Below, piece after piece: positions 6,863-63,530 of a stretch of DNA of 64,000 nucleotides. Origin of the DNA: Salminus brasiliensis (Eukaryota; Chordata; Actinopteri; Characiformes; Bryconidae); NCBI RefSeq assembly GCF_030463535.1, contig NC_132896.1:32582477-32646476 (forward strand), given 5' to 3'. Within the stretch, counting starts at the first letter, position 1. Every line of letters starts with the position of its first letter. Position numbers and translations under genes: made by a program. Under the pieces are notes generated by a model. That model saw only the letters and a program-made list of their open reading frames with translations, was not told the origin of the DNA and did not search any database.

Positions 6863-9471
6863 ATGACGACGACCACGATGTTGGTTCTCATTTTATTTCT
6901 CTATGTAATATGTAAGTTCATTTGCTCTTCATACAAACAAATTGTGAACTTTGCTTCTTTTGTTTCTTTCTCAGCTGAGCTCTGAACCTCTTTTATCCTG
7001 CAGATCCGGCTCAAGCTGCAGACCATTATGAGCCATTTGTATCAGTTAAGTCTGGTGAAAATGTGACTCTTCACTGTAAAGAAAAGCTTGATCAAGACTC
7101 TAGGGTTTGGGTTTGGTACAGACAGAGAGCGGGACAGGAGCCTCAAGAAGTGGCAACACAGTTAAAAAACAGAGATCCCATTCATCCATCAGAAAAATTT
7201 AAGATAAAGGAACACTTTTCTCTGACTATTGAAGGAGCTACTAAAGATGATGAAGGGATGTACTTCTGTGGAAAAGGCGACGGATACACGCTTCATTTTT
7301 TTAACGGCACATTTGTAGCTGTGACAGGTAACAGAATACTGTTTTGACTTTTGTCGGTATCTAAACCCACTTACAACTTTTACACTTCTAATATAAAACT
7401 GCAATCAAAATTAAATTCATGTATGTTATATGTTATGTATGTAAGAAATCAAAATTAACATCATTGTATTTGTAGCATCTCAGTGTTTTATTGCTCATAT
7501 TTGTGCATTATTAAGCCCACACAGTATCAACATACAATATCACCACATTTAAATAAAATCACATTGTTTCTGGCTAATCAAGATGGCAATGGTAAGATGG
7601 TCTTTATTTTATTGACCAGGTCATCCCCAGTTAAAGATCTCAGTGATCCAAACTCCAGTCTCAGCATCCGTTCCTCTGGGAGAAAATGTGACTCTGCAGT
7701 GCACGGTCCGCCCTGAGAACCGAGCAGCAGAACTGCAAGTGCTCTGGTTCAGATCTGCTGCAGGACGATCCTTTCCTGAGATCATCTACACTCATCACAA
7801 CAGCAGCCGTCAGTGTGAGATCAGCTCTTCTAAAGACGGCTGTGTTTTCAACTTCACCAAGAACATCAACAACAGTGAAGATACTGGAACTTACTACTGC
7901 GCTGTGTCCAGCTGTGGGAAGATCATTATTGGGAATGGAGCACATGTGAACTTCAGTAAGACAATTTTTAACGTGTTGCTTCTAGGTAGTATCTAGATAT
8001 AGAAGATATTAGTACAGTGCTCTGACTCCTCATTTCATCATATATTGAAATAAAATAGAAATAAAATGATACAGTAAAAATTAATTAAATAAAAAAGAAA
8101 GAAAATATTGTTTATGTGTATTAATTATGTGTATTATCTAAACTACAAAGCTATCATTTATTAATTAATTGATGTGTTAGATTTTGCAGCATTCAATATG
8201 CTAGAAATGCTAGAACGTTTTATATCAACCGATTTAGTGTTATATTGAACTCCAGGAAAGGCACTAATCAATGATCTCACAGACATAAACATAAACCTGG
8301 TTAGATTTAGACAATGCAATATTCCTGACTCCAACGTGGCCTCCAGTAGGCCATTGAGGATAATTAGTATTATGACTTTCTGCTATTATATCTGACTGTT
8401 TTACTTCAGAATCATATTTTTCCTCATCTTTTTTGATAATTACTGTCAATATATGTCACAAGACTGAAAGTAAAGCATTCTTTAACCAGTGCTTCTGTAC
8501 TTTCTGTGCAGTCAGTGTTGTACTGGGTTCCACACTGGTATTCTTAAACTGCACACACTAATATATCTTCTGTACACACTGACATTTAACTTCAGAACTA
8601 AATACTAACTAATGAACTTAATGAACTGTCAATAAATAACACAATTAAGAGAAATAATCTAAATTGTCCTCTATATACTAAAGTCATTGGACTAAATTCA
8701 TTGTGTTCAATAGTATTTTGTATTTGGTCATAAGTTCAAAAAAGCTTAATGAATAATTAATGATCTCTTATATTGAACTAAAGCTCTGAATTGTTTAAAT
8801 TTCTTCTATACATATTTCATTTGTATAGAAGATATAAGAGAAACAAAGGCAAAAGAAACATGAACTGAGATGGTTAAAAGTTGTTTTATCATAAATATGA
8901 CTACTTCTATCTTTCAGAGGAGTCTGTGGATCCCACTGTGTTCTATCTGGGAGTAGCTTTGGGAATTTGCGTGGTTGTCATTTTTGGCCTAGCTGTTTTA
9001 GACTGCAGAGGTAAGTGCAGCTCTATTATTACTCTTTTGTAATTAATACACTTGTATGATTTAATGGTTAGAATACATTTTTAAAATGCTGAGTTTTGTA
9101 GCTCAGTTCCAGCAGACAAAACAGACAACAATGATGGCTTATCAAATTAATGTGAAATAAAAAAATACCAACAATAATTGTTATTTTTCATTTTTCCATT
9201 GTAGTGAGGCCTCAGCAAGATTCATTGGATAAAGATATGACCAGTCAGGTAGTACTTGTGCTCTCACATGCCGTGGTGTTGTGGTGGACATGAACTACTT
9301 TTCTTTAAAAATAATAATCTGATCTATTTCCTTTTGTTTCCACTGGACCAGACTGCTGTGGAGTGGATTTACGCTGCCAAAAAACTGAGGATGAAGAAAA
9401 GACACTCCGGAGACAGTGTGTACTCTGAAGTGAGCTACTTCTCTGTTACTGATGCTAATCTAACTCGCTAA
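6863..9471 (+). CDS. nitr: Gene 2: NITR type A, inhibitory
   Basis: Exons 6863-6911 leader, 7004-7327 V, 7620-7955 I, 8918-9010 TM, 9205-9248 and 9352-9471 tail; 321 aa. V has LHCKEK, VWYRQ, EGMYFCGKGD and J-like FFNGTFVAV. I has LQC, VLWFRSAAGRSFPEII, RQCE, DGCVF and YYCAVSSCGK. It ends in GNGAHVNF instead of the GNGTAV of its relatives, so the usual glycosylation sequon NGT is lost. The TM has no charged residue. In the tail the first motif is spoiled (WIYAAK, Lys at +3), but SVYSEV and VSYFSV both fit the ITIM consensus and sit nearly back to back. The I-to-TM intron contains a copied 448-nt segment (8214-8661). Poly(A) signal AATAAA lies at 9649. The closest relatives in the window are genes 4 and 7. 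Confidence 0.88.
8214..8661. repeat. Intronic copy of intergenic segment
   Basis: Nearly identical to 10456-10900, which lies downstream of the same gene. Both copies end sharply, in shared AACGTTTTAT on the left and GAAATAATCTA on the right. A diverged relative lies downstream of gene 4 (about 21000-21170), suggesting that the downstream position is ancestral and the intronic copy is derived. Confidence 0.8.
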
Positions 9472-11513: not shown

Positions 11514-13637
11514 ATGGCTCGAGCTGTGATTGCCGCTGTAATTCTCTACAAAATGTGTAAGTTCCATACTTAAGTCCACTGAGATCCGCTAACACTGTAA
11601 GGAAATCTGAGCTGTATAGTTTAATATATATATAGTTTTATTATTATATTTCACCTGTTTTTATTATTGATTTGGCTGAACTGTATTTTACAGGTTCTGT
11701 TCAATCAGCAGGAAATTCTGAGTCATTGTATCTCTCAATTAAACCTGGTGAAGCAGCTACTCTCCGCTGCCCATATGAAGAACACTCCAGCACGTCGATG
11801 AGGATGTGGTTCAAGCAAAGACTGGAGCATTCACCGCTGGAAGTGGTGTCAAAGTTAGGAACAAAAGATGCAATATTTTCTTCCCAGTTTAACCAGTCAA
11901 GATTTAAAGATTTAAACAGAAATGCGAGCAGCTTTTCTCTGACTATAGAAAATGTTACTAAACAAGACGAGGGGATGTACTTCTGTGGAGTGGGTGATGA
12001 AAAAACACTGAAGATATCTAACAGTACTTTCCTAGCTGTTACAGGTAATCACTTTACTTCTATTTATATACATGATCACAATATGTTCAATCATATCTTC
12101 AAATATACCTTTTCAAATATAATATTCACCTATTATTCGATGTCAGTCTGAGGTTCATTGTTGCTACTATTACTAATATACTAAATATATTCTGTAAATA
12201 TTCATTATATACAATCAAGAAGCTTCAACACTGGAGCTTTAAACGAGTATCAGACACATAAGACCCAACTATACTACTGTGATCCAGATTTCACTCTGTC
12301 TGTATTACCAGGTGATATAAAGATCTCAGTGGATCAAACTCCAGTATTCCAGAAGATCATCATTGGCAATGGAACAACAGAGTGCTGGAGTAAGACGTCA
12401 TCTCTTTATAGGTTAATTAAACTTGACCAAACTGTATCTAGCTAAGATGGTATGAAATGCTTACCCAGCCAGATTCGTCCAGTTCACAGTTTACTGCATC
12501 TAAGAATTACATCACAGAATTTATTATGAATATATTGCCTGACGACAGAGACATTTCCAACAATTCCCCACATTTATTTCAAAGTTTTCAGATTTATCAA
12601 TGTTTTATAATTGTCAATATTACTTATAAAACTCAGAAGATGTGTATCAGTTCACCAGTATGTTTGGAGCAAAAACACAAATTTGCATTGGCAACATTGC
12701 AACCTCTATTTCCATCTGCTAACACTGTAAAGAAATCTGAGCCGTATAGTTGTTTTCTACACTGAACTATTTCACACCAAATTTGAAAAATAGGCATATT
12801 AATTATGCAGAAATGTTGAAAATCTTACATGACATTTAAACTTAATAATAACGACATTTGACTTGTTGGGCTTATAAGTTGCATCAAAATTATTGTCTTA
12901 CAGCAGAGTCTGACGTTCGTCTACTGATGTCCCTTGGAGTGTTTTCGGGGGTGTGTGTGGTTGTTATCTGTGTTCAAGCCATTGTAATATTTAAGATGAG
13001 AAGGTCTGGTGGTAAGTGTTCATTGGGTTGTATCTGATTTTGGACTAGATTACTTCTTATATATCTTAAAGTAATTTGGATTCTTTCTACAGAGAAACTT
13101 CAGGAGGGTGAAGGACCTCCTAACCAGGTATTTCTCATACAGTTGCTGTTTTACTGTTAATATTTTGGTTAGGATTGGACAGTCTTCAATGCAATGGTTT
13201 ACACCTGAACTTGTAAACCACTATCACCTGAGATCCCATTTGGGATTGCTTTTAATTATATATATATATACATATATATATTTAATGTTTTGCACAAAGG
13301 CACAACTGGAAGCACCCAGCCAATTCTGGCATCTAACTTCAACCATGTAGTTACTGCATTAAGTAACATAGAGTTACGGTAAATCTTAACTAATTTGATC
13401 TTGAGAAAACTGAAGCTCTTTGGCATCTTTTAGGTAGCTTGAAGCAGCTCATTAAATAACAATTAAATCAGGATCTGTTCTTTCCCACAGGATCATAATG
13501 CTGACAATCTGAATTATGCTCCCATTCGCTTCATTGACAAGAAAACCGGGAGAGAAAGAAAGAAAGAACAGCCTGAAGAACTCGTGTACTCCCAAGTGAG
13601 AATCTCCCATGCTAATGATCATCGTTCAAAGCGCTAG
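11514..13637 (+). CDS. nitr: Gene 3: NITR type B with collapsed I domain
   Basis: Exons 11514-11556 leader, 11694-12044 V, 12312-12389 mini-I, 12904-13011 TM, 13093-13127 and 13491-13637 tail; 253 aa. V is complete: LRC, MWFKQ, EGMYFCGVGD and J-like SNSTFLAV. The I exon keeps its first about 13 codons and its last about 13, joined as TPVFQKIIIGNGT. It is 78 nt against 336 nt in gene 5, so 258 nt (86 codons) are missing, in frame, with both splice sites kept. The protein would therefore have one Ig domain on a short stalk. The TM acceptor is a CAGCAG tandem (start 12904 or 12907), and both choices stay in frame. The tail has two canonical ITIMs, LNYAPI and LVYSQV. AATAAA lies at 13869. It could be a working V-only receptor or a decaying gene; the intact frame favours the first. 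Confidence 0.8.
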
Positions 13638-17321: not shown

Positions 17322-19365
17322 ATGACGACGAACACGATGTTGGTTCTCATTTTATTTCTCTATGTAATATGTAAGTTCATTTGCTCTTCATACAAACAAA
17401 TTGTGAACTGTGTTGCTGAAATATCAGCCACTGTTTTCTTTATCAGCTGAGCTCTGAACTCCTTTTATCTTGCAGATCCTGCTCGAACCACAGACCTTAA
17501 TGAGCGGACGTTTATCTCAGTTGAGTCTGGTGAAAATGTAACTCTTCACTGTAAAGAAAAGCCTGAAAAAGCCTCTAAGGTTTGGGTTTGGTACAAGCAG
17601 AGAGCGGGACAGGAGCCTCAAGAAGTGGCAACACAGTTAACCAGCAACAACCAAGAGCCTTTTTTGAATTCGATTTTTCAGAAAGGATTCAAAATAGATA
17701 AGAAAGACTTTTCTCTGACTATTAAAGGAGCTACTAAAGATCATGAAGGGATGTACTTCTGTGGAAAAGGCGACGGGAACACGCTTAAGTTTTTTAACGG
17801 CACATTTGTAGCTGTGACAGGTAACAGAACTGATGTTTTGACTTGTGTTGATAGATAAACTCATGATACATTTATACATTTATACATTTATAATATAAAA
17901 CTGCAATAATAATCAAACCTGTGTGAGCTCTTCACTCCTGTGACATAGAAAGTAAAAATATATTTGGAGCATCTCAGTTTTTCTTGATTATACTTATACA
18001 CTATTATTTTATTGACCAGGTCATCCTCAGTCAAGCATCTCAGTTATACAAACTCCAAAATTAGCGTCGGTTCCTCCAGGAGATAATGTGACTCTGCAGT
18101 GCACGGTCCACCCTGAGAACCAAGCAGCTGAACGTGGAGTGCTCTGGTTCAGATCTGCTGCAGGACGATCCTTTCCTGAGATCATCTACACTCATCACAA
18201 CAGCAGCCGACAGTGTGAGATCAGCTCTTCTAAAGACGGCTGTGTGTTCAACTTCACCAAGAACATCAACAACAGTGAAGATACTGGAACTTACTACTGC
18301 GCTGTGTCCAGCTGTGCGAAGATCATCATTGGGAATGGAACAGCAGTCAGATTGAGTAAGCCAAATTTTTGTGTTTTACATTTACAGTTTACAGTTTTGT
18401 GTTGTGCTTCAGATACTAAGTATGTAAATAGAAGATGGGTTGGAATTAAATGCTAATAAAAATCTATCAAAAAAAATTAAATAAAATTTCTAAATTTCTA
18501 ATAAATAAAAAAAAATAATGTTTTGATTATCTAAATATGCAGAAATAGTTACATAAAAGTTATTCATTACTGTACATTATTGAATTTGTGCTTCAACAGT
18601 ATTTTGTATTTGATCATAAGTTCAAAAAAGCTTTCATCTATGGTCTCTTATATTAAACTAAAGCTGTGAAAAACATTATTTTTCCCATACATTCATGTTT
18701 TATTTTGTTAATTGAGTTAAATCTGAGGTTTGTAAGAGATACAATGGTCAAATACCATGATTTGAGAGTTGGTTGAAAGGTCTTTTACCGTAATGTATAA
18801 AGTACATTGACTATTGTTGTCTTTCAGAGGAGCCTGTGGATCCCATTGTGTTCTATTTCGGAGCAGCTTTGGGAATTTGTGTGGTTGCAATCTTTGGCCT
18901 AGCAGTTTTAAACTGCAGAGGTAAGTGTAGCGTTTTTGATGCTCTTTTGTAAGTAATGACTTTTAGGATGTTAAACTTTATAAACTATTAAAATACTAAA
19001 CGTTCTGAAGCTCAGTTGCAGCAGACAAAACAGACGACATTGATGGCTTATCATATGGATGTGAAATAAAAGAATCTCTGACTGAAATTTTTTCCATTGT
19101 AGTGAGACCTGAGCAAGATCCCCTGGATGAGAATATGGTCAGTCAGGTTGCATTTCTGTTCTCTTACATTTGATGAGTTATGATTTATTTAAATGTAGAA
19201 ATAATTATCTAATCTCTAATCTTTTGTTTCTTCTTTTGTTCCCAGACTGCTGTGGAGCGGATTTACGCTGCCAAAAAACTGAGAATGAAGAAAAGACGCT
19301 CTGGAGACAGTGTGTACTCTGAAGTGAGCTACTTCACCATTAATGATGCTAATCTAACTCGCTAA
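17322..19365 (+). CDS. nitr: Gene 4: NITR type A, inhibitory
   Basis: Exons 17322-17370 leader, 17476-17820 V, 18020-18355 I, 18828-18920 TM, 19103-19146 and 19246-19365 tail; 328 aa. The gene is parallel to gene 2 exon by exon, but its V domain differs between the cysteines (TSNNQEPFLNSIFQKG in the C''-D region) and is seven codons longer. V ends in EGMYFCGKGDGNTLKFF and J-like NGTFVAV. I has the shared VLWFRSAAGRSFPEII block, SSCAK where relatives have SSCGK, and GNGTAVRL. The TM has no charged residue. The tail has a spoiled first motif (RIYAAK) and two ITIMs, SVYSEV and VSYFTI. AATAAA lies at 20811, far downstream. This is the block-2 counterpart of gene 2. Confidence 0.88.
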
Positions 19366-21811: not shown

Positions 21812-24200
21812 ATGGCTCGAGCTGTAATTACGGTCTTATTTCTTCACCAAATGTGTAAGTTCCATACTTACGTTTTTGTAATTATTGATGATTTTGATGA
21901 ATTTTGTTTTTACGTTTTTACGTATTTCACTTGTTTGTTTTTTTTTGCTGATTTGGACTTTTATTGATTTATTTAACAGGTTCTGCTCAAGCAGCAGGAA
22001 ATTCTGAACCACTGTTTCTCTCAGTTAAATTTGGTGAACCGGCTACTATCCGCTGCTCATCTGGAGAAAGCTCCAATACAGAAGTCAGAATGTGGTACAA
22101 GCAAAGACTGGAGCATTCACCACTGGAAGTGGCATCAAAGTTAGGAACAAAAGAGGCAGTAATGTCATCCCAGTTTAGCCATTCAAGATTTAAAATAAAC
22201 AAAGCTGGGAACACTCTCACTATTGAAAATGTTAGTAAAAAGGATGAGGGGATGTACTTCTGTGGAGCGGGGGAAGCGAAAACACTGACATTTTCTAACA
22301 GTACATTCCTAGCTGTTACAGGTAATCACTTCACTTCCATTTATATATATATACTAATATACTAAATATATTCTGTAATTATTCATTTATTACAATCAAG
22401 AAGCTTCAACACTGGAGTTTTAATCGAGTATCAGACACATTAGGCTCAACTATATTACTGTGATCCAGATTTTACACTGTCTGTATTACCAGGTGATATA
22501 AAGATCTCAGTGGATCAAACTCCAGTACTGGAATCAGTTTCTTCAGGAGAGTCGGTGACTCTGCAGTGCACAGTCCTCTCTGAGGTCAGTCCAGAAGATC
22601 TCAGGGTGCTCTGGTTCAGATCTGCTGCAGGACGATCCTTTCCTGAAATCATCTACACTGATCACAACAGCAGCAGCAGCCGTCAGTGTGAGACCAGCTC
22701 CTCTCCACACAGCTGTGTGTACAACTTTTCCAAGAGCATCCTCAACGACAGTGATGCTGGAACTTACTACTGCGCTGTGAGCACCTGTGGGAAGATCATC
22801 ATTGGCAATGGAACAACAGTGTGCTTGAGTAAGATGTCTTTTTTTTTAAGGGCAATTAAACCGATTTTACAAACTGTATCTAGCTAAGATGGTGTGAAAT
22901 GCTTCATTCTAGAGAAACCTACCCAGTCAGAATGGATCACAATGGTGATGAACTGGACCAGACATCCACACCAGAGTTAAAAACTACTAAACATAATGCT
23001 GTATTTTAAATACACTACATATAGATTGAAAGGGTACGTGCAGGGAGTTTTAGGAAAAAAAAGTTTCTATAAAAAACTAATTTAAAATTTCAGATTATTC
23101 AGATTATTTTTTGAATTGGCAACATCACTACCCCAGCTCCATTTACCATCTCTGTAAATAAATCTGACCCATCTGTTTCTCAATATTACACCGTTTCACA
23201 CCAAAACCGCTTGAGACTTTTTACATTTTTATTTTAATTAGACACCAAATGTATTTGTTTGTTCATATGTGATATTAGTTTATGTCATCAGTAATAACAT
23301 TAATTTATATTAAATAGAAATTGAAAAAAGAAAAAAATACTACTAATACTTGTATAATAATTCTTGTCTTACAGTAAAGTCTGACGTTCCTCTACTGTCC
23401 CTTGGAGTGTTTTCGGGGGTGTGTTTGGTTGTTATCTGTGTTCAAGCCATTGTAATATTTAAGATGAGAAGGACTGGGGGTAAGTGTTTATTGGGATTTG
23501 CCTGTTTTTGGATTAGATTGCTCATTATGATGAATAGAAAGTAGCCACTATAATACCATAGAATTCATTTGGATTTTTTAATCTGCAGAGAAACATCAGG
23601 AGGCTGCTGTAAATGAGAGACCTCCAAACCAGGTATTTCTTATGCAGTTGCTGTTTTGATTGCCACTCTTCAATGCAATGGTTTACATCCAAACTTGCAA
23701 AGCACTATCACCTGAGATTCAGTTTGGGATTGTTTTTAATCAGAGCAGTTTTTTGCGATTTTTTTAAGTATTAAAAATATGTAATAAATGTTTTGCTTAA
23801 AGTTACACTCAGAAGTACCCGGCTAACTCTGGGATTTAACTTTATAACCGTGCGGTTGCTGGCTCTGTAACTACTGGGTATTGCTTTGGTTATATATTTA
23901 TTTTCAATGTCATGCTGGAGAGTTTTGAATATTTAAATATAACAGGCTTAATTACATAATATAACAAGCTTTAATTTTGTTTTATAAAAACATGTATTTT
24001 ATTCTACCAATATAACATAGTTTTAAAAAATCAGGATCTGTTCTTTCCCACAGGATCATAATGCTGACAATCTGAATTACGCTCCCATTCGCATTGTTGA
24101 CAAGAAAACCGGGAGAGAAAGAAAGAAAGAGCAGCCTGAAGAACTCGTGTATTCCCAAGTGAGAACCTCCCATGCTAATGCTCATCGTTCTAAACGCTAG
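21812..24200 (+). CDS. nitr: Gene 5: NITR type B, inhibitory, full I domain
   Basis: Exons 21812-21854 leader, 21980-22321 V, 22493-22828 I, 23375-23479 TM, 23589-23632 and 24054-24200 tail; 338 aa. This is the intact form of which genes 3 and 8 are the I-deleted versions: same leader style, same V framework (IRC, MWYKQ, EGMYFCGAGE, SNSTFLAV), same tail as gene 3. The I domain has LQC, VLWFRSAAGRSFPEII, a four-Ser run before RQCE, SCVYNF, YYCAVSTCGK and GNGTTVCL. The last Cys is extra and not shared with other full I domains here. The TM is uncharged. The tail has ITIMs LNYAPI and LVYSQV. AATAAA lies at 24234, only 34 bases after the stop. Confidence 0.88.
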
Positions 24201-45618: not shown

Positions 45619-46943
45619 CAGTGGGAAAAGAACGTATTTAGTCAGTCACCAATTGTGCAAGTTCTCCCACTTAAAAAAATGAGAGAGGCCTGTAATTGAC
45701 ATCATAGGTAGACTCAACTATGAGAGACAAAATGAGAATCACATTGTCTGATTTTTAAAGAATTTATTTGCAAATAATGGTGGAAAATAAGTATTTGGTC
45801 GCCTACAAACAAGCAAGATTTCTGGCTGTCACAGACCTGTAACTTCTTCTTTAAGAGGCTTCTCTGTCCTCCACTCATTACCTGTATTAATGGCACCTGT
45901 TTGAACTGGTTAACAGTATAAAAGACACCTGCCCACAACCTCAAACAGTCACACTTCAAACTCCACTGTGGTGAAGACCAAAGAGCTGTCGAAGGACACC
46001 AGAAACAGAACTGTAGACCTGCACCAGGCTGGGAAGACTGAATCTGCAATAGGCAGCAGCTTGGTGTGAAGAAATCTACTGTGGGAGCAATAATCAGAAA
46101 ATGGGAGACCTACAAGACCACTGCTAATCTCCCTCGATCAGGGGCTCCACGCAAGATCTCAGCCCGTGGGGTTCAAAATGATCACAAGAACGGTGAGCAA
46201 AAATCCCAGAACCACACGGGGGGACCTAGTGAATGACCTGCAGAAAGCTGGGACCAACGTTACAAAGTCAAGTCAAGTCAAGTCAAATTTATTTGTATAG
46301 CGCTTTTTACAACTGTTGTCGTCACAAAGCAGCTTTACATAATTAGTACTTAACAAAGGCTACCGTTAGTAACACACTATGCCGCCAGGGACTCAGATCT
46401 TGCAGTGCCAGACGTGTTCCCCTGCCTAAGCCAGTACATATCCGGGCATGTCTGAAGTTTGCTAGAGAGCATTTGGAAGTTCCGGAAGAGTTTTGGGAGA
46501 ATGTCTTAGAGATGAAACCAAAGTAGAACTGTTTGGTACAAACACAACTCGTTGTGTTTGGAGGAGAGTAAATGCTGAGTTGCATCCAAAGAACACCATA
46601 CCAACTGTGAAGCATGGGGGCGGCAACATCATGCTTTGGGGCTGTTTCTCTGCAAAGGGACTAGGACGACTGGTCCGTGTACATGAAAGAATAAATGGGG
46701 CCATGTATTGTGAGATTTTGAGTGCAAACCTCCTTCCATCAGCAAGGGCATTGAAGATGAAACATGGCTGGGTCTTTCAGCATGACAATGATCCCAAGCA
46801 CACTGCCAGGGCAACAAAGGAGTGGCTTTGTAAGAAGCATTTTAAGGTCCTGCAGTGGCCTAGCCAGTCTCCAGATCTCAACCCCATAGAAAACCTTTGG
46901 AGGGAGTTGAAAGTCCATGTTGCCCGCTGACAGCCCCAAAACA
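45619..46943 (+). mobile_element. Tc1/mariner-like transposon, 3' truncated
   Basis: Begins with CAGTGGGAAAAG right after TA, the Tc1 target, and has an ITR-like first 100 bases. A transposase reading frame follows: KTKELSKDTRNRTVDLHQAG near 45972, frameshifted soon after, then an open stretch at 46493-46930 with [31 protein letters not shown]. The catalytic Asp of the second motif and Glu of the third are present (DD34E type). The frame ends early (HVAR stop), homology stops near 46943, and the right ITR is missing, so it is dead. An 85-base foreign insert lies inside it. Confidence 0.85.
46268..46352. mobile_element. Short element nested in the Tc1 relic
   Basis: Interrupts the transposase frame between ACAAAG (46262-46267) and a second ACAAAG (46353-46358), a 6-bp target duplication. 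The insert contains AAGTCAAGTC repeats and TTTATTTGTATAGCGCTTTT, a very common fish interspersed repeat. I cannot assign its class. Confidence 0.75.
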
Positions 46944-47599: not shown

Positions 47600-50597
47600 A
47601 TGATGACTCTACAGAGGACTGGGGTTATCATTTTAATTCTCCAAAACCTGTGTAAGTTTTACAAAATTTCACACGCTTGTTATGGTTATGGTTTCAAATT
47701 AAAAGATTTATTTTTGCTTTCTGGAAGAATCATGTTTGAGTGTGAGAAGCCTTTTTAAGATTCAAGAATCTTTAAATACTGTAATCTAAAAGTCCTGTAC
47801 CAAATTATGAGTTTGTCCTGGAACCTTTTTATTCTTTACATCTTAAAATGTTAAATCTCACTATTAAATCTGTTAAATCTACAAACACGATTCTCTAAGG
47901 AACCACTAACTGAAGGGTGATTTTTTTTAGCAAAGGTTTGGCATCAAGAGCACATATTTTTATGATTGATTTATTTATTATGTTGATTTAACTGTATTTT
48001 ACAGGTTCTGCTCAATCAGCTGGAAATTCTGAGTCATTGTATCTCTCAATTAAACCTGGTGAAGCAGCTACTCTCCGCTGCCCATATGAAGAACACTCCA
48101 GCACGTCGATGAGGATGTGGTTCAAGCAAAGACTGGAGCATTCACCGCTGGAAGTGGTGTCAAAGTTAGGAACAAAAGATGCAATATTTTCTTCCCAGTT
48201 TAACCAGTCAAGATTTAAAGATTTAAACAGAAATGCGAGCAGCTTTTCTCTGACTATAGAAAATGTTACTAAACAAGACGAGGGGATGTACTTCTGTGGA
48301 GTGGGTGATGAAAAAACACTGAAGATATCTAACAGTACTTTCCTAGCTGTTACAGGTAATCACTTTACTTATAATTTTATATATAATTACATTATATTCA
48401 ATCACAATAACATGTCAGTTTGAGATTCATTGTTGCTACTGTTACTGTTACAATCAAAAAGCTTCAACACTGGAGCTTTAAACGAGTATCAGACACATTA
48501 GACCCAACTATATTACTGTGATCCAGATTTCACACTGTCTGTATTACCAGGTGATATAAAGATCTCAGTGGATCAAACTCCAGTATTCCAGAAGATCATC
48601 ATTGGCAATGGAACAACAGAGTGCCGGAGTAAGACGTCATCTCTTTATAGGTTAATTAAACTGTTTTGTCCAAACTGTATCTAGCTAAGATGGTATGAAA
48701 TGCTTACCCAGCCAGATTCGTCCAGTTCACAGTTTATTGCATCTAAGAATTACATCACAGAATTTATTATGAATATATTGCCTGAAGACAGAGACATTTC
48801 CAACAATTCCCCACATTTATTTCAAAGTTTTCAGATTTATCAATGTTTTATAACTGTCAACATTACATATAAAACTCAGAAGATGTGTATCAGTTCACCA
48901 GTGCATTTGGAGCAAAAACACAAATTCGTATTGGCAACATTGCAACCTATTTCTATCCGCTAACACTGTGATATAAAGATCTCAGTGGATCAAACTCCAG
49001 TACTGTGCTGGAGTAAGACATCTTTGTGTTCTTATATGTTGTATAAATGTATGTTTATACATGTAAATAATTATTATTTTATAAGATATGTATACATATA
49101 CATTCAAATGCAGATAATGCAATCAATTGTTTATTGTTCTCATTGTTGCTCTTATCATAGCTAATGTCAATGTTCACAGAAGAAAACGTTTCTACATTTT
49201 CTTTCCTTCCTGACCTCACTTAGCTTGTCACCAACCAGTGCTGGTTCTCAGCCTTGGTCTGGCTCTGGGGTTGAGCTTATTTGGCAATATCATTCAGGCC
49301 TGCTGGAGCTGGAGGAGAGGGATCTGCAGTGGTGAGTTTATTCAGATGAACCAAATGTTCTTCAGTTTATGACCAGGTTCCTAAACTTCTAACACGGCTC
49401 CTCTCAATGCATTTCAAGGTAAGACATCTCAGTCTGACCTCCACGATTTCCAAGAACTTCTAAAAGACCAGGTATGTTAGGTTTTCTCTTTCATTTTTCC
49501 TCTTTTCTGTAAAGTTGATATTTTGGAGATGTTTGGAGAAGCGTTCCTCTGTCAGGAAATATATACTTAACATTGTTGATCTGGTTTGAAGACTTCTTTC
49601 AAGCGGTGAATACATTAGGCAGCAACTGAACAGTCAGGTTTTGAAGGTGATGATGGTGTTAAAAGCAGGAAAAATGGTCAAGTGTAAGAATCTGAGATTA
49701 GCATCTCTAATATTGTGTGGTGTTGCTAAAATGCAGTGGTCATTAGCGACAGAAAGTGCTTGAAGTAAGGACTGAACTGGTGATAGGGTAATGGTCACGG
49801 AAAGCTCACAGATGCTCGAGGAGGTCCCACTTTACAACTTACAAGCCTTAAAGGATTTACTACTACTAATTAATTAATTAAGAGGTCTTGTGGATATATA
49901 TATATATGTGTGTGTGTGTGAATTTATAAAGACAATAAAGAGACTGTATTAATTATCAACTAATAAAAAAGACTTTATTTAAATGTTTAGATTTGTTTTA
50001 GGTTGTTGAACCGCCGTGCTAAATTGCTGTTGTGATTTAGTTCTTTTAATATGAATTGAACCTGTTACATGTTAAGGATGTGTTTATGTTATAGATATGT
50101 ATGTTATAGTACTTACTGACTAATGTATAGTGGTGATTGAGTGTTTTGTAGTAATATTATAGTAGCAATTGAGTACTTCATAAACATTGTGTTTCACTGA
50201 ATGAATGATAATATTTACTGAATGTCAGTCATTTCTATAAAATATGTTTTTAGATTAATATCTGAACGAGTCTAACGAACATGGAAAAGACCTCTTCAAC
50301 AACAGACAATAGACCTGACCTCTAGGTTGTAGATTATATCTGCTCTCTGCTAAACGCTGGTGAGAGGAAACTTTCACACCTCCCTTTGGGCGTTGGGGTG
50401 AGAACAACAGAGCGCGCTCAGTGCAGCTGATCTGGGTCAGACATCGGCTTCCTCACTTAGACGTGTCAACAGTGGATGACATGATGTATACTGAGATATG
50501 GTGTCTAAGCATGATCAGATTCATCTATTTTTATGTTATTTGGGGATTCTCAAAAATTGCAACTTCATAAGAAAAGAAAAAAACACTTTGAATTGAA

Positions 50598-50630
<33 letters not shown>

Positions 50631-50918
50631 TGTGTGTGTGTGTAAACATGCATGAAACTGCATTGTGCTCATAATAACCTGTCTTTAATCATGCATAAAT
50701 ATGATATGTCCTGTTAGATTTTAAATACTGAGGTCATACTGCCACCTACTGGAGCTCCTTACCTCAGCTCTGCTCTTTTTTTATAGGATGGTGATGAAGA
50801 GGAGTTCTACTTCGCTGCTTTACATTTCTCTGATAAGATGAAGAGACGAGGGTTCAAGGAGAACGTTTTCACCAAAGTCAGATTCACCCCTTTTTCTGAC
50901 CACAAACCCGCCCAGTAA
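47600..50918 (+). CDS. nitr: Gene 8: chimeric NITR, collapsed I domain, Tyr-less ITIM sites
   Basis: Exons 47600-47651 leader, 48005-48355 V, 48551-48628 mini-I, 49224-49331 TM, 49419-49471 and 50787-50918 tail; 257 aa. V differs from gene 3 by only a few bases at its 5' end. The mini-I exon has the same 258-nt in-frame loss. The TM exon (CHQPVLVLSLGLALGLSL, then WRRG) resembles no other in the window. The tail is that of gene 9: aligned to ELNYAALHF of gene 6 it reads EFYFAALHF, and aligned to LYSEVK it reads VFTKVR, so Phe stands at both ITIM tyrosine positions. A Tyr one position earlier (FYFAA) has no Leu/Val/Ile at +3. The product would be a one-Ig receptor without a usable ITIM. ATTAAA lies at 51152. 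A second possible last exon lies at 51765. Confidence 0.78.
48965..49014 (+). pseudogene. Second, shorter I-exon relic in gene 8 intron
   Basis: GTGATATAAAGATCTCAGTGG and the following bases repeat the start of the type B I exon, then jump at CCAGTACTG straight to TGCTGGAGTAAGA, the exon end. The preceding bases are CACT, not an AG acceptor, so it is probably not spliced in. It is a separate deletion from the one in the mini-I exon 340 bases upstream. Confidence 0.7.
50603..50642. repeat. (GT)n microsatellite
   Basis: About 20 GT units. A matching run lies in the second copy of the duplication at about 57814-57860. Confidence 0.93.
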
Positions 50919-51510: not shown

Positions 51511-51866
51511 GTGGAGAACACAACCAATCAGGTACTACCTGTGTCCTTTTCTGCATTTAGAAGATGTGTTATGAAGCACACTGATAATCCTGTACTAAAA
51601 GTTAAGTTCTCAGACCTGTTTAACACTGTATCTCCATTCTGACAGAACCCTGATTCTGATATTAAAGGCCCTGATGGAATTATGATTATGGTTATGATTA
51701 TTAAAGTTATGCTGCTACCTGCTGGAGTTCCACATTTCAGTTCTGGTCTTTTAATCTGTAACAGGACCCTGATGAGGAGGAGGAGTTCTGCTTTACTGAA
51801 AAGATGAAGAACGTCTTCACCAAAGTCAGAATCACCCCTTTTCCTTACCACAAAATCACTCAGTAA
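51511..51866 (+). other. Alternative or relic tail exons downstream of gene 8
   Basis: GAGAACACAACCAATCAG followed by GTACTACCTGTGT (donor at 51532) resembles the first tail exon end of gene 7 (ENPPSQ). A clean acceptor at 51764 then opens a 102-nt phase-0 exon (51765-51866): DPDEEEEFCFTEK, VFTKVR, stop. Compared with the 50787 exon, the membrane-proximal site is lost entirely and the second keeps Phe. It is either an alternative 3' end of gene 8 or the remains of a separate gene's tail. Confidence 0.55.
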
Positions 51867-53090: not shown

Positions 53091-54815
53091 AAGTGTGGAA
53101 AATATAAATTAGGATTCAAAATATTCTAAATATGGTATTTTTTGAAGAGCATGACTGAAAACTATAGAATACGAGTACGAGTAGTAGAATGACTGTGGAT
53201 CATCTATTTGTATCAAGTGAGAGTGTTTTTAAAAATGTAATTGTGGAACTGAAAAAACAGTTACTTTAAATATAATTTTTTAAGACTCAAAACTATGGAC
53301 TTTATTTAATCTATATCTCAGAGTTCCTTCTATGGGATGAAGCTTGGAGTACTCTGTAAAATGTGAATCTTGTACTGTGTCACCTGTGTTCAGTTTTTTA
53401 AATTGGTGTTTATAATTCAATAAAGATACATAGAAAAAAAATACATAAAATGAAGCCCTTCAGAACTTTGATGATTGGGGAGTTGAGGGTGAGGTGAGGT
53501 GAGTTGGTCTACTATCAGCTTCTTTGTCTTGCTGATGTTAAGGAGAACATTGTTATTCTGGCAGTTCTCCAACTTGGCCATACCATCACAATAAGAAGGT
53601 AGACATCCTACAATACTTACGAACTTGTCAATTGTGGTAGAGCTGGAAGAAGCCATATTCATGTATTTCTGTACTTAATTTAAAAATAAAGTGGCAAAAA
53701 AAGAGGTGGCACTGAAGCGATGTAAATGTAACACTAGTCAGAAAACTGGTATGTGTATGAAGTTTGTACAGAATTTAGCAAAGTTGTTCCTTTTAGCTAC
53801 AATAGGCCCAGCTTCAGGCATAGGGGCACAAGCATGAAGCTCATAACAGGCCCAGGTCAAGAGAACTATCACTGAAATTGTACAGCCAACACCTTTTGTT
53901 TACCAGAAGCAACAATCAGATGTTGTGTTTCAATCAATCAATCAGAATAAACAGCTAAAAGATTTTTACTGTTTTACATTTTGTCTGATTGCCAATAATT
54001 ATGTTGCTTATTATACCAAGGTCAAAAGGTCAATGGCACGTAGTGTTGGGATTTATATAGTTTACTAGGAAATTTGCAAGCAGTCAATGATGACAGTCCA
54101 TAAAAATGTAGATGTTTTACATTGATTTTAGACAAGAACTAAATGAAAGCTCATTTCAAAGCTACAGAAGAAAGAATTTGACTATGCAAATATCCATTTC
54201 TCTCATTCATGTTTAAGGAACGTTATTTTAGTTCCCATGTTTTAGTAATGTAATATCAGTATGCTGGGCAATAACACAATTAGTATCTGTGAGTTAGTTG
54301 GAAATGAGCATGAGCTGCTGGCCCAAAGGCCTGTAGAGGAGCCTGTAGACGACAAATGAACAAACATTCATCGGACAATGTTTGAACAAATGACATCGAT
54401 CAAATGAATTAGTCAAGTTACATAATTCAGAAGCCTAAATATGAAAGACAATTAGAAAGTATTTCTTTTTGAATGGCTGTACCAGTCCTGGATGGTCAAA
54501 TTCAATAATAACATGTATCATACATGCATCGTCATTGAAATTCTCAACCTTTTAAGTACAGATTTTTTTCTGTGATTTGTATGTTTGTGTATTTGTAATG
54601 ATCTCCTCTATTTAAGTAAGCTGGTCTCTTTTATTTCAGTTCCACTCTCCATTGTAGACTTTGAAACATTAAGGGTTTATATATTGAATAGTTTTTACAT
54701 AACTGTTCTAGGGAGTGTCTCGACTTCTACGCTTAATGGAAAAGTACTATGATAATGAAGTCAAGTAAAACATGGGTTACAAGTCAAGAAAAAAAAAAAA
54801 ACTTGTCAAGTCTAG

Positions 54816-54897: not shown

Positions 54898-57813
54898 ATG
54901 GCTTCATTTATGATGACGACTCCGACGAGGATTCTCATTTTCCTCTTCTACATAATGTGTAAGTTTATAAACTTCTTAAATCGTTCAGGTCTTCAGCTGC
55001 TTCTAGGGTTGGAGCTTTACTGTCAGGTGTAGAAACCTTGTCTAACTTTTCTTTCTTGGTTTTAATCGGATCTTAATTTATTTTATAGGTTCTGCTGAAG
55101 CTGAGGATGTTGCTGAGCGAGTGTTTATCTCAGCTGAGTCTGATAAGTCTGTTACTCTTGACTGTAAAGCTGTAAAACAGTCTGTTGCCTACACACACCG
55201 GGTTTGGTACAAGCAAATTCTGGGCCAGGAACCTCAGGAAGTGGCAACAAGGCTTCAAGACAAATCATGGGGCGCTCTTTCACCTGGGTTTGATGCTTTA
55301 GCTTTAAAACTGCACAACAATTTTTCTTTAACTATTGAAAAACCGACTAAAGCTCATGAAGGAATGTACTACTGTGGGCGAGGAGATGCAAAAAGCTTTA
55401 CATTTACAAATGCGATATTTGTAGCTGTGGCAGGTAATGACATTACTTTTTTAACTGCTGTATTTCAGTAAAGTTGAACATTGTTACTAATTCACACTCT
55501 ACACTGTCTGAAGCAACCGCAATATTGAAGCATTTTATAATCAAACATGTATCATGGGTAACCGACTGCTCCGGGCGAGACCAAGAAAACCCAATATCAG
55601 TTCAAAAGATCCTTAAATAAGACATAATTGAATATCCATTCTAAACTTTATTGATTATTAATTCCGTAACAGTTTACCTGCATATCCTAATCTTACACTG
55701 TCTTTATCATATTGATCAGATCATTCCCAGTCCTTAACCTCAGTTACCCAGAGTCCAGAATTCCAGTCAGTTTCTCCAGGAGAACCAGTGAATCTGCAGT
55801 GCACGGTCCACAGTAAGGTCCAAGCAGCTGAACTTCGAGTGCTCTGGTTCAGATCTGCTGCAGGACGATCCTTTCCTGAGATCATCTACACTCATCACAA
55901 CAGCAGCCGTCAGTGTGAGATCAGCTCTTCTAAAGACGGCTGTGTGTTCAACTTCTCCAAGAACATCAACAACAGTGAAGATACTGGAACTTACTACTGC
56001 GCTGTGTCCAGCTGTGGGAAGATCATTATTGGCAATGGAACAGCAGTAGACTTTAGTAAGCCTCACATCTTTCTTAATATGCAGTCACATACAGGGGGTT
56101 CTGCGTTATATCTAGAACCTTGATGTCTTAGGAAGCCATTGAATGCTTATGTTTTGTTTTTTTTTCTTTGTAACACTGAATAGTTCCTGGATAGCCTGCT
56201 GTAAGGAACATTTTCCCTATGGCACCAAAAAGGGTCCCACTTTCATTAGAAGTCATAGAACCTTCTTTAGTAAAGTGTACAAATAGTATAAACACCTTGG
56301 AAGAGCTGGATAAAATGAGCTTCTGATGCTTTAGTTAGTCATATTTGACATACTCTTACCATACCATATCTTACCATCATACTGGTTAGGTCTTTAATGC
56401 TTATGATTATAAATATGTAGTAATTTAATGATTTATATCTTCTAGAGAAACCTGTGGATCTTGCTGTGATCTTCCTGGGAGCAGCATTGGGAGTGTGTGT
56501 GGTTGTGATCGCAGCTCAATCCATTTTAATCTGTAAAGGAAACTGTAAACACTGCAGCGGTGAGCGTCTTTTGAGTTTTTACCCATATATTTTACTGTGT
56601 GCTTAAATAAAGGTGAGCTCTTACTATGTAAAATGTAGATCAAGCCTCATCATGATTGTTTCAAGGTAAGACATGTCAGTCTGGCCTCCACGATTTCCCA
56701 GAGGTGCTACAAGACCAGGTAAGTTGTGTTTTCTCTTTCATTTTTTTTACTGAATTGTTTCCTCGTCACTCAGTAACATTGTGGGCTGGATACATTAGGC
56801 AGCAACTGAACGGTCAGGTTTTGAAGGTGATGATGGTGTAAAAACAAGAAAAATGGTCAAGCGTAAGAATCTGAGATTAGCATCTCTAATATTGTGTGGT
56901 GTTGCTAAAATGCAGTGGCCATCAGCTACAGAAAGTGCTTGAAGTAAGGACTGAACTGGTGAAAGGGTAATGGTCACGGAAAGCTCACAGATGTTCGTGG
57001 AGGTCCCACTTTAAAGGACTAAAGGATCTACTACTGCTAATGTCACAGGATACATTAAGAGGTCTTGTGGAGTCCATAGCTCAGGTTAGACCATAACCTT
57101 TAGGTTAGTTCAGAGAAAATGTATGTTATGGCTGATTTGTATATATATCTGTATGATCAAATTTATAAAGACTCTAAAGACATTTTGCTCATAATTAATT
57201 AATAAAAAAGACTTTAATTAAATGTTTAGATTTGTTTTAGGTTGTTTAACCATTGTCCTAAATTGCTCTTTTAATATGAATTGAACCTGTTACATGTTAA
57301 GATGTTATGTTATAGATATGTATGTTATAGATATGTATGTTATAGTACTTACTGACTAATTTATAGTGGTGATTGAGTGTTTTGTAGTAATATTATTGTA
57401 GCAATTAAGTACTTTATAAACATTGTGTTTCACTGAATGAATGATAATATTTACTGAATGTCAGTCATTTCTATAAAATACGTTTTTAGATTAATATCTG
57501 AACAAGTCTAAAGAACATGGAGAAGACCTCTTCAACAATAGAGATGATAGATTATATCTGCTCTCTGCTAAACGCTGGTGAGAGGAAACTTTCACACCTC
57601 CTTTTGGGCGCTGGGGTGAGAACAACAGAGCGCGCTCAGTGCAGCTGATCTGGGTCAGACATCGGCTTCCTCACTTAGACGTGTCAACAGTGGATGACAT
57701 GATGTATACTGAGATATGGTGTCTAAGCATGATCAGATTCATCTATTTTTATGTTATTTGGGGATTCTCAAAAATTGCAACTTCATAAGAAAAGAAAAAA
57801 ACACTTTGAATTG

Positions 57814-57857
<44 letters not shown>

Positions 57858-58123
57858 GTGTAAACATGCATGAAACTGCATTGTGCTCATAATCATGCAT
57901 AAATATAATATGTCCTGTTAGATTTTGAATACTGAGGTCATACTGCCACCTACAGGAGCTCCTTACTTCAGCTCTGCTCTTTTTTTTATAGGATGATGAT
58001 GAGGAGGAGTTCTACTTCGCTGCTTTGCATTTCTCTGATAAGATGAAGAGACGAGGGTTCAAGGAGAACGTTTTCACCAAAGTCAGATTCACCCCTTTTT
58101 CTGACCACAAACCTGCCCAGTAA
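54898..58123 (+). CDS. nitr: Gene 9: NITR with Tyr-less ITIM sites
   Basis: Exons 54898-54958 leader, 55089-55433 V, 55720-56055 I, 56446-56559 TM, 56666-56718 and 57992-58123 tail; 346 aa. V has LDCKAV, VWYKQ, EGMYYCGRGD and a worn J-like end (FTNAIFVAV). I is full, with the shared VLWFRSAAGRSFPEII block, RQCE, DGCVF, YYCAVSSCGK and GNGTAVDF. The TM is uncharged and followed by CKGNCKHCSG, close to genes 1 and 6. The last exon is nearly the same as in gene 8: EFYFAALHF and VFTKVR, Phe at both ITIM positions, after an acidic DDDEEE start. ATTAAA lies at 58357. Unlike gene 8, both Ig domains are complete. Confidence 0.87.
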
Positions 58124-58747: not shown

Positions 58748-59105
58748 GTACACTGGTGGAAAACACAACCAATCAGGTACTACCTGTGTCCTTTTCTGCA
58801 TTTAGTGTTATGAAGCACACTGATAATCCTGTACTAAAAGTTAAGTTCTCAGACCTGTTTAACACTGTATCTCCATTCTGACAGAACCCTGATTCTGATA
58901 TTAAAGGCCCTGATGGAATTATGATTATGGTTATGATTATTAAAGTTATGCTGCTACCTGCTGGAGTTCCACATTTCAGTTCTGGTCTTTTAATCTGTAA
59001 CAGGACCCTGATGAGGAGGAGGAGTTCTGCTTTACTGAAAAGATGAAGAACGTCTTCACCAAAGTCAGAATCACCCCTTTTCCTTACCACAAAATCACTC
59101 AGTAA
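58748..59105 (+). other. Alternative or relic tail exons downstream of gene 9
   Basis: Duplicate of 51511-51866. The 102-nt exon 59004-59105 appears base-identical to its partner and keeps acceptor, frame and stop. Confidence 0.55.
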
Positions 59106-61862: not shown

Positions 61863-63480
61863 ATGGCTTCATTTATGACGAGGATTCTCATTTTCCTCTT
61901 CTACATAATGTGTAAGTTTATAAACTTCTTAAATCGTTCAGGTCTTCAGCTGCTTCTAGGGTTGGAGCTTTACTGTCAGGTGTAGAAACCTTGTCTACCT
62001 TTTCTTTCTTGGTTTTAATCGGATCTTAATTTATTTTATAGGTTCTGCTGAAGCTGAGGATGTTGCTGAGCGAGTGTTTATCTCAGCTGAGTCTGATAAA
62101 CCTGTTACTCTTGACTGTAAAGCTGTAAAACAGTCTGTTGCCTACACACACCGGGTTTGGTACAAGCAAATTCTGGGCCAGGAACCTCAGGAAGTGGCAA
62201 CAAGGCTTCAAGACAAATCATGGGGCGCTCTTTCACCTGGGTTTGATGCTTTAGCTTTAAAACTGCACAACAATTTTTCTTTAACTATTGAAAAACCGAC
62301 TAAAGCTCATGAAGGAATGTACTACTGTGGACGAGGAGATGCAAAAAGCTTTACATTTACAAATGTGATATTTGTAGCTGTGGCAGGTAATGACATTACT
62401 TTTTTAACTGCTGTATTTCAGTAAAGTTGAACATTGTTACTAATTCACACTCTACACTGTCTGAAGCAACCGCAATATTGAAGCATTTTATAATCAAACA
62501 TGTATCATGGGTAACCGACTGCTCCGGGCGAGACCAAGAAAACCCAATATCAGTTCAAAAGATCCTTAAATAAGACATAATTGAATATCCATTCTAAACT
62601 TTATTGATTATTAATTCCGTAACAGTTTACCTGCATATCCTAATCTTACACTGTCTTTATTATATTGATCAGATCATTCCCAGTCCTTAACCTCAGTTAC
62701 CCAGAGTCCAGAATTCCAGTCAGTTTCTCCAGGAGAACCAGTGAATCTGCAGTGCACGGTCCACAGTAAGGTCCAAGCAGCTGAACTTCGAGTGCTCTGG
62801 TTCAGATCTGCTGCAGGACGATCCTTTCCTGAGATCATCTACACTCATCACAACAGCAGCCGTCAGTGTGAGATCAGCTCTTCTAAAGACGGCTGTGTGT
62901 TCAGCTTCTCCAAGAACATCAACAACAGTGAAGATACTGGAACTTACTACTGCGCTGTGTCCAGCTGTGGGAAGATCATTGTGGGCAATGGAGCTACAGT
63001 AGACTTTAGTAAGCCTCACATCTTTCTTAATATGCAGTCACATACAGGGGGTTCTGCGTTATATCTAGAACCTTGATGTCTTAGGAAACCATTTGAATGC
63101 TTATGTTTTTTTTTTCCTGGTTCCTGGATAGCCTGCTGTAAGGAACATTTTTCCTATGGCACCAAAAAGAGTCATAGAATCTTCTTTAGTAAAGTGTACA
63201 AATAGTAGAAACACCTAAGAAGAGCTGGATACTCTGAGCTTTAATAAACTGATGCTTTAGTTATTCATATTTGACATCATACTCTTACCATATCATATCT
63301 TACTGGTTAAGTCTTTAATGCTTATGAAAATAAATATGTCGTAATTTAATGATTTATATCTTCTAGAGAAGCCTGTGGATCTTGCTGTGATCTTCCTGGG
63401 AGCAGCATTGGGAGTGTGTGTGGTTGTGATCGCAGCTCAATCCATTTTAATCTGTAAAGGAAACTGTAAACACTGCAGCG
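61863..63480 (+). CDS. nitr: Gene 10: NITR, tail beyond window
   Basis: Exons 61863-61911 leader, 62042-62386 V, 62673-63008 I, 63367-63480 TM; 281 aa so far, open at the 3' end. It is the duplicate of gene 9: V differs at two residues (DKSV to DKPV, TNAIF to TNVIF). The leader is four codons shorter, through loss of 12 bases in an ATG/ACG repeat. In I, the changes are an Asn-to-Ser (FNF to FSF) and three residues in the J-like tail (IIIGNGTAV to IIVGNGATV), which removes the NGT sequon. No tail exon is visible in the 520 bases left: the sequence departs from gene 9 exactly where its tail exon begins. Whether the tail has ITIMs cannot be told. Confidence 0.85.
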
Positions 63481-63530
63481 GTGAGCGTCTTCTGAGTTTT
63501 GTGTTACCTCATGATGATTGTTTATTTGAC

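Follow-up and report, generated by a model that had tools for sequence, protein, structure and literature searches.

A phenylalanine-tailed class of NITR-type receptor genes in Salminus brasiliensis as a candidate non-inhibitory half of a paired receptor set

Here we describe a class of NITR-type receptor genes in Salminus brasiliensis in which the last exon, where full-length, encodes phenylalanine at both positions occupied by the ITIM tyrosines of neighbouring genes. Judging from their sequences, we consider it rather probable (roughly 0.55) that these genes, termed Phe genes below, represent the non-inhibitory half of a paired receptor set and that their products would not recruit SHP phosphatases at these sites. 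The window, that is, the whole stretch of 64,000 nucleotides analysed, covers positions 32,582,477-32,646,476 of the forward strand of NC_132896.1 (assembly GCF_030463535.1); coordinates above 64000 refer to an extended window on the same chromosome (contig position minus 32582476). Analyses of the cluster as a whole span 194 kb of chromosome in this one species, across which about 27 V-bearing units form a tandem cluster. Within the NITR literature covered, which is incomplete, we found no published report of a natural class of ITIM tails with Phe in place of Tyr.

Two Phe genes, genes 8 and 9, lie in the window, with the following exons.

47600..47651, plus strand: gene 8 leader exon (open model, phase 1 donor)
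48005..48355, plus strand: gene 8 V-domain exon (Pfam V-set, E 1.8e-14)
48551..48628, plus strand: gene 8 I-domain exon, shortened in frame to 78 bases
49224..49331, plus strand: gene 8 transmembrane exon of the Phe-gene class, with an uncharged core containing Asn
49419..49471, plus strand: gene 8 C1, first cytoplasmic exon, GKTSQSDLHDFQELLKDQ
50787..50918, plus strand: gene 8 C2, last exon, long Phe tail (open model)
51765..51866, plus strand: second, shorter Phe-type last exon 3' of gene 8
54898..54958, plus strand: gene 9 leader exon (open model)
55089..55433, plus strand: gene 9 V-domain exon (Pfam V-set match)
55720..56055, plus strand: gene 9 I-domain exon (Pfam V-set match)
56446..56559, plus strand: gene 9 transmembrane exon of the ITIM class, with the same protein sequence as the transmembrane exon of the ITIM gene at extended 167837
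56666..56718, plus strand: gene 9 C1, first cytoplasmic exon, GKTCQSGLHDFPEVLQDQ
57992..58123, plus strand: gene 9 C2, last exon, long Phe tail (open model)
59004..59105, plus strand: second, shorter Phe-type last exon 3' of gene 9

Their features place genes 8 and 9 among the NITR-type receptor genes of fish, a name assigned from general NITR features and those given in the consulted sections of PMC2442602 rather than from a match to a named NITR. As in NITRs, cluster genes follow the exon plan L-V-I-TM-C1-C2, the C1 of genes 8 and 9 being a short exon between the transmembrane exon and the C2 tail. A V-type Ig domain is followed by an I-type domain, with Pfam V-set matches for both V exons and for the I exon of gene 9, gene 8 retaining only a stub of its I exon. 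Inspection by eye further revealed that the I exon of gene 9, and of most cluster members, closes with a J-like GNGT (GSGT in one). NITR I domains carry six conserved cysteines; five were counted by eye in the gene 9 I exon and six are present in several other members. PDB searches returned antibody and TCR V domains, and no NITR entry, among the best 60 of 559 and 5444 matches.

Full models of both genes are open with phases 1-1-1-1-0, encoding 257 residues in gene 8 and 346 in gene 9. The V protein of gene 8 is 99% identical to that of ITIM gene 3 (11693-12043), and the deletion in its I exon also occurs in gene 3 (about 12311-12388), the splice sites being kept in both. By sequence, gene 8 is a front half near-identical to ITIM gene 3 joined to a transmembrane exon and tail of the Phe class, while gene 9 is a chimera of an ITIM-class transmembrane exon and a Phe tail. 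With the I exon reduced to a stub, genes 3 (ITIM) and 8 (Phe) are single-V receptors; a further short I-exon remnant lies at 48970-49005, and an intergenic open frame before gene 8 (46466-46930) resembles by eye the end of a Tc1-like transposase. The nearest V relative of gene 9 is gene 10, the tail of which falls outside the readable DNA, and no ITIM partner for gene 9 was found in the readable DNA. Gene 10 itself (V, I and TM, 62041-63482) is a near copy of gene 9.

A preliminary description had presented genes 8 and 9 as two cases of ITIM loss, which does not hold. Their tails and flanks repeat at about 7.2 kb in blocks that are 88-95% alike, so that the two genes are copies of one tandem duplication and constitute a single event rather than independent cases. 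Both are moreover unusual members of the class, gene 8 having lost most of its I domain and gene 9 being chimeric, and the real case rests on the 11 Phe-type last exons of the chromosome.

The account given of the tails themselves fared better. Exons 50787-50918 and 57992-58123 are open, stop-terminated and preceded by acceptors with long pyrimidine tracts; alignment supports their proposed homology to the ITIM tails of the cluster, and alignment of the last exons places Phe, and no Tyr, at both ITIM positions of both window tails, as had been claimed. Likeness to ITIM tails was equalled in 0/5000 shuffles for the tail at 50787 and likewise 0/5000 for that at about 111463-111466, in 7/5000 and 32/5000 for the diverged copies at about 175529-175532 and at 70536, and in 2175/5000 for the short copy at 51765, which is thus not above shuffling. 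Pairwise Z values of the 50787 tail were 6.0-6.9 against four of five ITIM tails and 1.9 against the fifth. Homology at the second site derives from global alignments and position, the local match of the profile stopping short of it.

A whole-genome search with the 50787 tail, in which 11 candidates were scored and counts are a lower bound, yielded at least 8 matches at E <= 0.001, all within the same stretch of chromosome arm. On the chromosome, 11 Phe-type last exons extend over about 125 kb, the short ones located by tblastn in the 194 kb, and five whole Phe genes were found in addition to those of the window.

Long Phe tails (n=8), starting at: 50787, 57992, 70536, about 111466, 146795, 147677, 157544, about 175529
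Short Phe tails (n=3), starting at: 51765, 59004, 164792
Further whole Phe genes (n=5): 67005-70670, 108592-111609, 143533-146926, 153947-157675, 171738-175651

All seven gene models tried (genes 8, 9 and these five) are open; an eighth Phe gene, at 160998, has a short tail only and its C1 was not found. Phe occupies both sites in 8/8 long tails and the second site in 11/11 tails, the first site of the three short tails lying in or beside a deletion; Phe codons of the long tails are TTC, with a single TTT at the first site. ITIM-type tails carry Tyr at the first site in 16/16 and at the second in 15/16. As the preliminary description had stated, the consensus ITIM is lost, being present in 0/11 Phe-type tails versus at least one copy in each of 16/16 ITIM-type tails. 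An acidic start of variable length is found in all 11 Phe tails. The Phe tail represents a class of its own and no local accident.

Tails of other cluster members vary in their own ways. Genes 2 and 4 (9352-9468, 19246-19362) retain the first Tyr without an ITIM consensus (IYAAK) and have a consensus ITIM at the second position. In the ITIM-type tail at extended 74351-74467 the second Tyr is replaced by His (SVHSEV), another kind of motif loss within the cluster.

Scanning 4692 open fragments of the 194 kb with a profile built from 7 ITIM tails identified, in readable DNA, no significant hidden ITIM exon in the intervals separating a Phe tail from the V exon that follows it. An FDYANI match near 54180 and 61140 was set aside because the DNA around it is AT-rich, an indel distinguishes its copies and its E value is 6.5. 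Family searches with the Phe tail returned no Pfam family at a threshold of 0.01 and no NCBIfam family at a threshold of 1.

The ectodomains and the tails of the Phe genes differ in their history. Six Phe genes group, in the tree of transmembrane exons, in one 100/100 clade that includes, on a long branch, the minus-strand ITIM gene at extended 95541-98779, while the other two (gene 9 and that at 160998) fall in the ITIM transmembrane class; the Phe label requires 4 changes versus a shuffled mean of 7.0, with 5/500 shuffles as low. In the V tree the same label is maximally dispersed, with 8 changes for 8 rows versus a shuffled mean of 6.8. The minus-strand gene, the only one on that strand seen in 194 kb, has V, I and Phe-class transmembrane exons, the last with WNIT, and Tyr at both tail sites. 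Its tail is the best tail match for three of the four long Phe tails tested. Since tails outside the class carry Tyr, the change probably ran from Tyr to Phe, although the position of the minus-strand gene within the Phe transmembrane clade makes this order of events less certain.

For the V exon, seven of the eight Phe genes are closest to an ITIM gene, with 87-99% identity in protein.

13491..13634, plus strand: ITIM-bearing last exon of gene 3, the V domain of which matches gene 8
24054..24197, plus strand: ITIM-bearing last exon of gene 5, the V of which is 97% identical to that of the Phe gene at extended 143835
Nearest V pairs (Phe gene, then ITIM gene): gene 8 and gene 3, 99%; 143835 and gene 5, 97%; 108757 and 127623, 98%
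Nearest V pairs, continued: 154593 and 77107, 93%; 67151 and 77107, 92%; 171894 and 88806, 87%; 160998 and 166655, 97%

A near-identical ligand-binding domain joined to different tails, the configuration of paired receptors, is thus present in 7/8 Phe genes. Six of the seven pairs differ in V by a dS of 0-0.013, the remaining one (171894 and 88806) by a dS of 0.113. Across these subfamilies, 13/13 genes have a nearest V relative with the opposite tail, an arrangement equalled by 32/1716 relabellings in a test that was framed after the pattern had been seen and that comprises five pairs and one trio. Among the six pairs compared, those with a Phe-class transmembrane exon, DNA likeness to the partner stops within about 10 bases of where the I exon ends in the five with full I exons (143835, 154593, 67151, 108757 and 171894), and in gene 8 it stops in the intron after the I exon. 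Such a boundary is expected if recombination runs through a shared I exon. Partner V domains differ by 47 nonsynonymous and 12 synonymous changes over the seven pairs, close to the neutral ratio, and positive selection between partners is not claimed. These findings raise the likelihood of the competing, decoy-like role suggested in the preliminary description, since the V domain of most Phe genes is held in common with an ITIM gene; the sharing may nonetheless reflect gene conversion acting neutrally among tandem copies.

The tails, in turn, look to be maintained by selection. Fits of a codon model, with a likelihood-ratio test (LRT) applied alike to three tail sets, gave omega 0.354 for the 8 long Phe tails (LRT 8.81, p = 0.003), 0.363 for all 11 Phe tails (LRT 11.27, p = 0.0008) and, among ITIM-type tails other than that of the minus-strand gene (n=15), 0.592 (LRT 9.71, p = 0.0018); these p-values are optimistic and the test weakened, since the copies are related and may recombine. 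The dN/dS comparison between copies that had been proposed as a check therefore yields omega below 1 for the Phe tails. Pairwise omega is scattered from 0 to 0.86, a few pairs having no synonymous change. By a simple Poisson estimate, the chance under neutrality that both Phe codons are retained on the fitted tree is about 0.015. These values bear on the alternative that Phe tails are decaying relics of ITIM exons which survive through recent duplication and gene conversion, as might be suggested by the missing bulk of the gene 8 I domain, the in-frame deletions of the short tails, the very recent copying of the ectodomains and the motif loss in other cluster tails (second-site Tyr to His in 1/16 ITIM-type tails). 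Against decay, the constraint just described is accompanied by indels in multiples of three, the 11 tails are without stop or frameshift, every model tried is open, and the same Phe is kept in long-tail copies at tail dS of up to about 0.4-0.6; we regard this alternative as unlikely.

The transmembrane segments argue against an activating partner. Paired receptors usually set an activating form against an ITIM form, according to the sections used of PMC3533184 and PMC2832619, and a Phe receptor might signal through an adaptor by way of the core Asn of the transmembrane class common to six Phe genes. However, the 19-residue core is free of K, R, D and E in all eight Phe genes (one Glu was seen among 27 transmembrane segments examined), and gene 9 and 160998 carry ITIM-class transmembrane exons without the Asn. 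The same Asn is found in the minus-strand ITIM gene, so it is not tied to ITIM loss and was rejected as an activating sign. Adaptor signalling consequently seems improbable. Phe genes likewise have neither the charged transmembrane core of an activating NITR of the Nitr9 type nor the one or more consensus or near-consensus ITIM tyrosines of an inhibitory NITR, so that neither standard label fits.

Some features of the cytoplasmic region could instead indicate a role in trafficking or adhesion rather than signalling, through an acidic cluster, a DFQELL-like C1 or a phosphorylation-free aromatic motif. All 11 tails start acidic, and both gene 8 and the gene at 171894 have a C1 that contains DFQELL, which fits the acidic dileucine pattern. 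The dileucine is nevertheless not conserved (EVL or KVL in other C1 exons), YxxL/I/V occurs in 0/8 long tails, and an LIR-like autophagy motif, present as EFYFAAL in 6/8 and at the second site in 8/8 long tails, was rejected as a mark of the class because LIR-like matches occur in 16/16 ITIM-type tails. A sorting function accordingly has little likelihood.

A similarly low probability attaches to the proposal that the Phe tail has traded SHP for the serine/threonine phosphatase PP1, which would dock on the conserved KVRF of the tail. KVRF is found in 8/8 long and 1/3 short Phe tails, compared with RVxF matches in 0/16 ITIM-type tails; it lies within NVFTKVRFTPF, the most conserved block of six aligned tails, and is the PP1-binding motif of GADD34 in the part of PMC10743859 used. 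It carries small weight, however, since matches to so short a motif arise in 10%, 10% and 6% of the shuffled versions of three long tails and since the Phe tails descend from one ancestor and count as one observation. In addition, two of the three short tails have KVRI, the minus-strand ITIM tail already has the RF, and no second PP1 motif was identified. A family split between an ITIM half using SH2 tyrosine phosphatases and a Phe half using constitutive PP1 via KVRF on the same ligand, which would free the Phe class of phosphotyrosine control, appears very improbable.

Returning to the Phe genes as non-inhibitory partners within a paired set, the sequences, exon structure, constraint and shared V domains together suggest the following scenario. 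The Phe C2 exon would encode the cytoplasmic tail of a separate NITR-type class, kept by selection, with Phe for both ITIM Tyr. Recombination would repeatedly homogenise the V domains of Phe genes with those of ITIM neighbours, their transmembrane and tail exons presumably remaining separate. If expressed, a Phe receptor might then bind the same or similar ligands as its ITIM partner, would probably fail to recruit SH2 phosphatases via the Phe sites, and could by competition withdraw ligand from the inhibitory partner. Phe receptors would thereby be natural counterparts of laboratory Tyr-to-Phe ITIM mutants and, given expression, would show that a conserved partner with neither an ITIM nor a transmembrane charge can be favoured by selection in a paired system. 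The class allows one to ask whether NITRs compete for ligand and what role a conserved tail without a tyrosine motif may have.

Compared with the NITRs of bony fish, the cluster shares the clustering of genes, the L-V-I-TM-C1-C2 exon set, V-type Ig domains, the J-like GNGT and ITIM tails in the genes neighbouring the Phe class, whereas the Phe class itself lacks both an ITIM and a charged transmembrane residue. ITIM-like variants of medaka, as covered in the sections used of PMC2442602, miss the first or last consensus residue and not the Tyr. Mammalian CEACAM1/CEACAM3-type pairs similarly keep the ligand-binding V exon alike despite different tails, with a very low synonymous change in the V exon that the consulted portion of PMC2832619 reads as gene conversion or recombination; in contrast to the Phe class, which has no known signalling motif, the CEACAM partner has an ITAM-like motif. 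The horse CEACAM1 paralogs are likewise amplified inhibitory receptors that lost ITIM function, but the loss is described, in the passages drawn on from PMC5856374, as occurring by splicing and stop codons and not by Phe for Tyr with the tail kept. SIRP-gamma has its ligand in common with SIRP-alpha, has no signalling motif and is listed as giving no signal in the section used of PMC3533184. By analogy, SIRP-gamma beside SIRP-alpha would be the nearest functional likeness of the Phe class. SIRP-gamma is nonetheless a single gene with a very short tail, whereas the Phe class has a full-length tail conserved in 8 genes.
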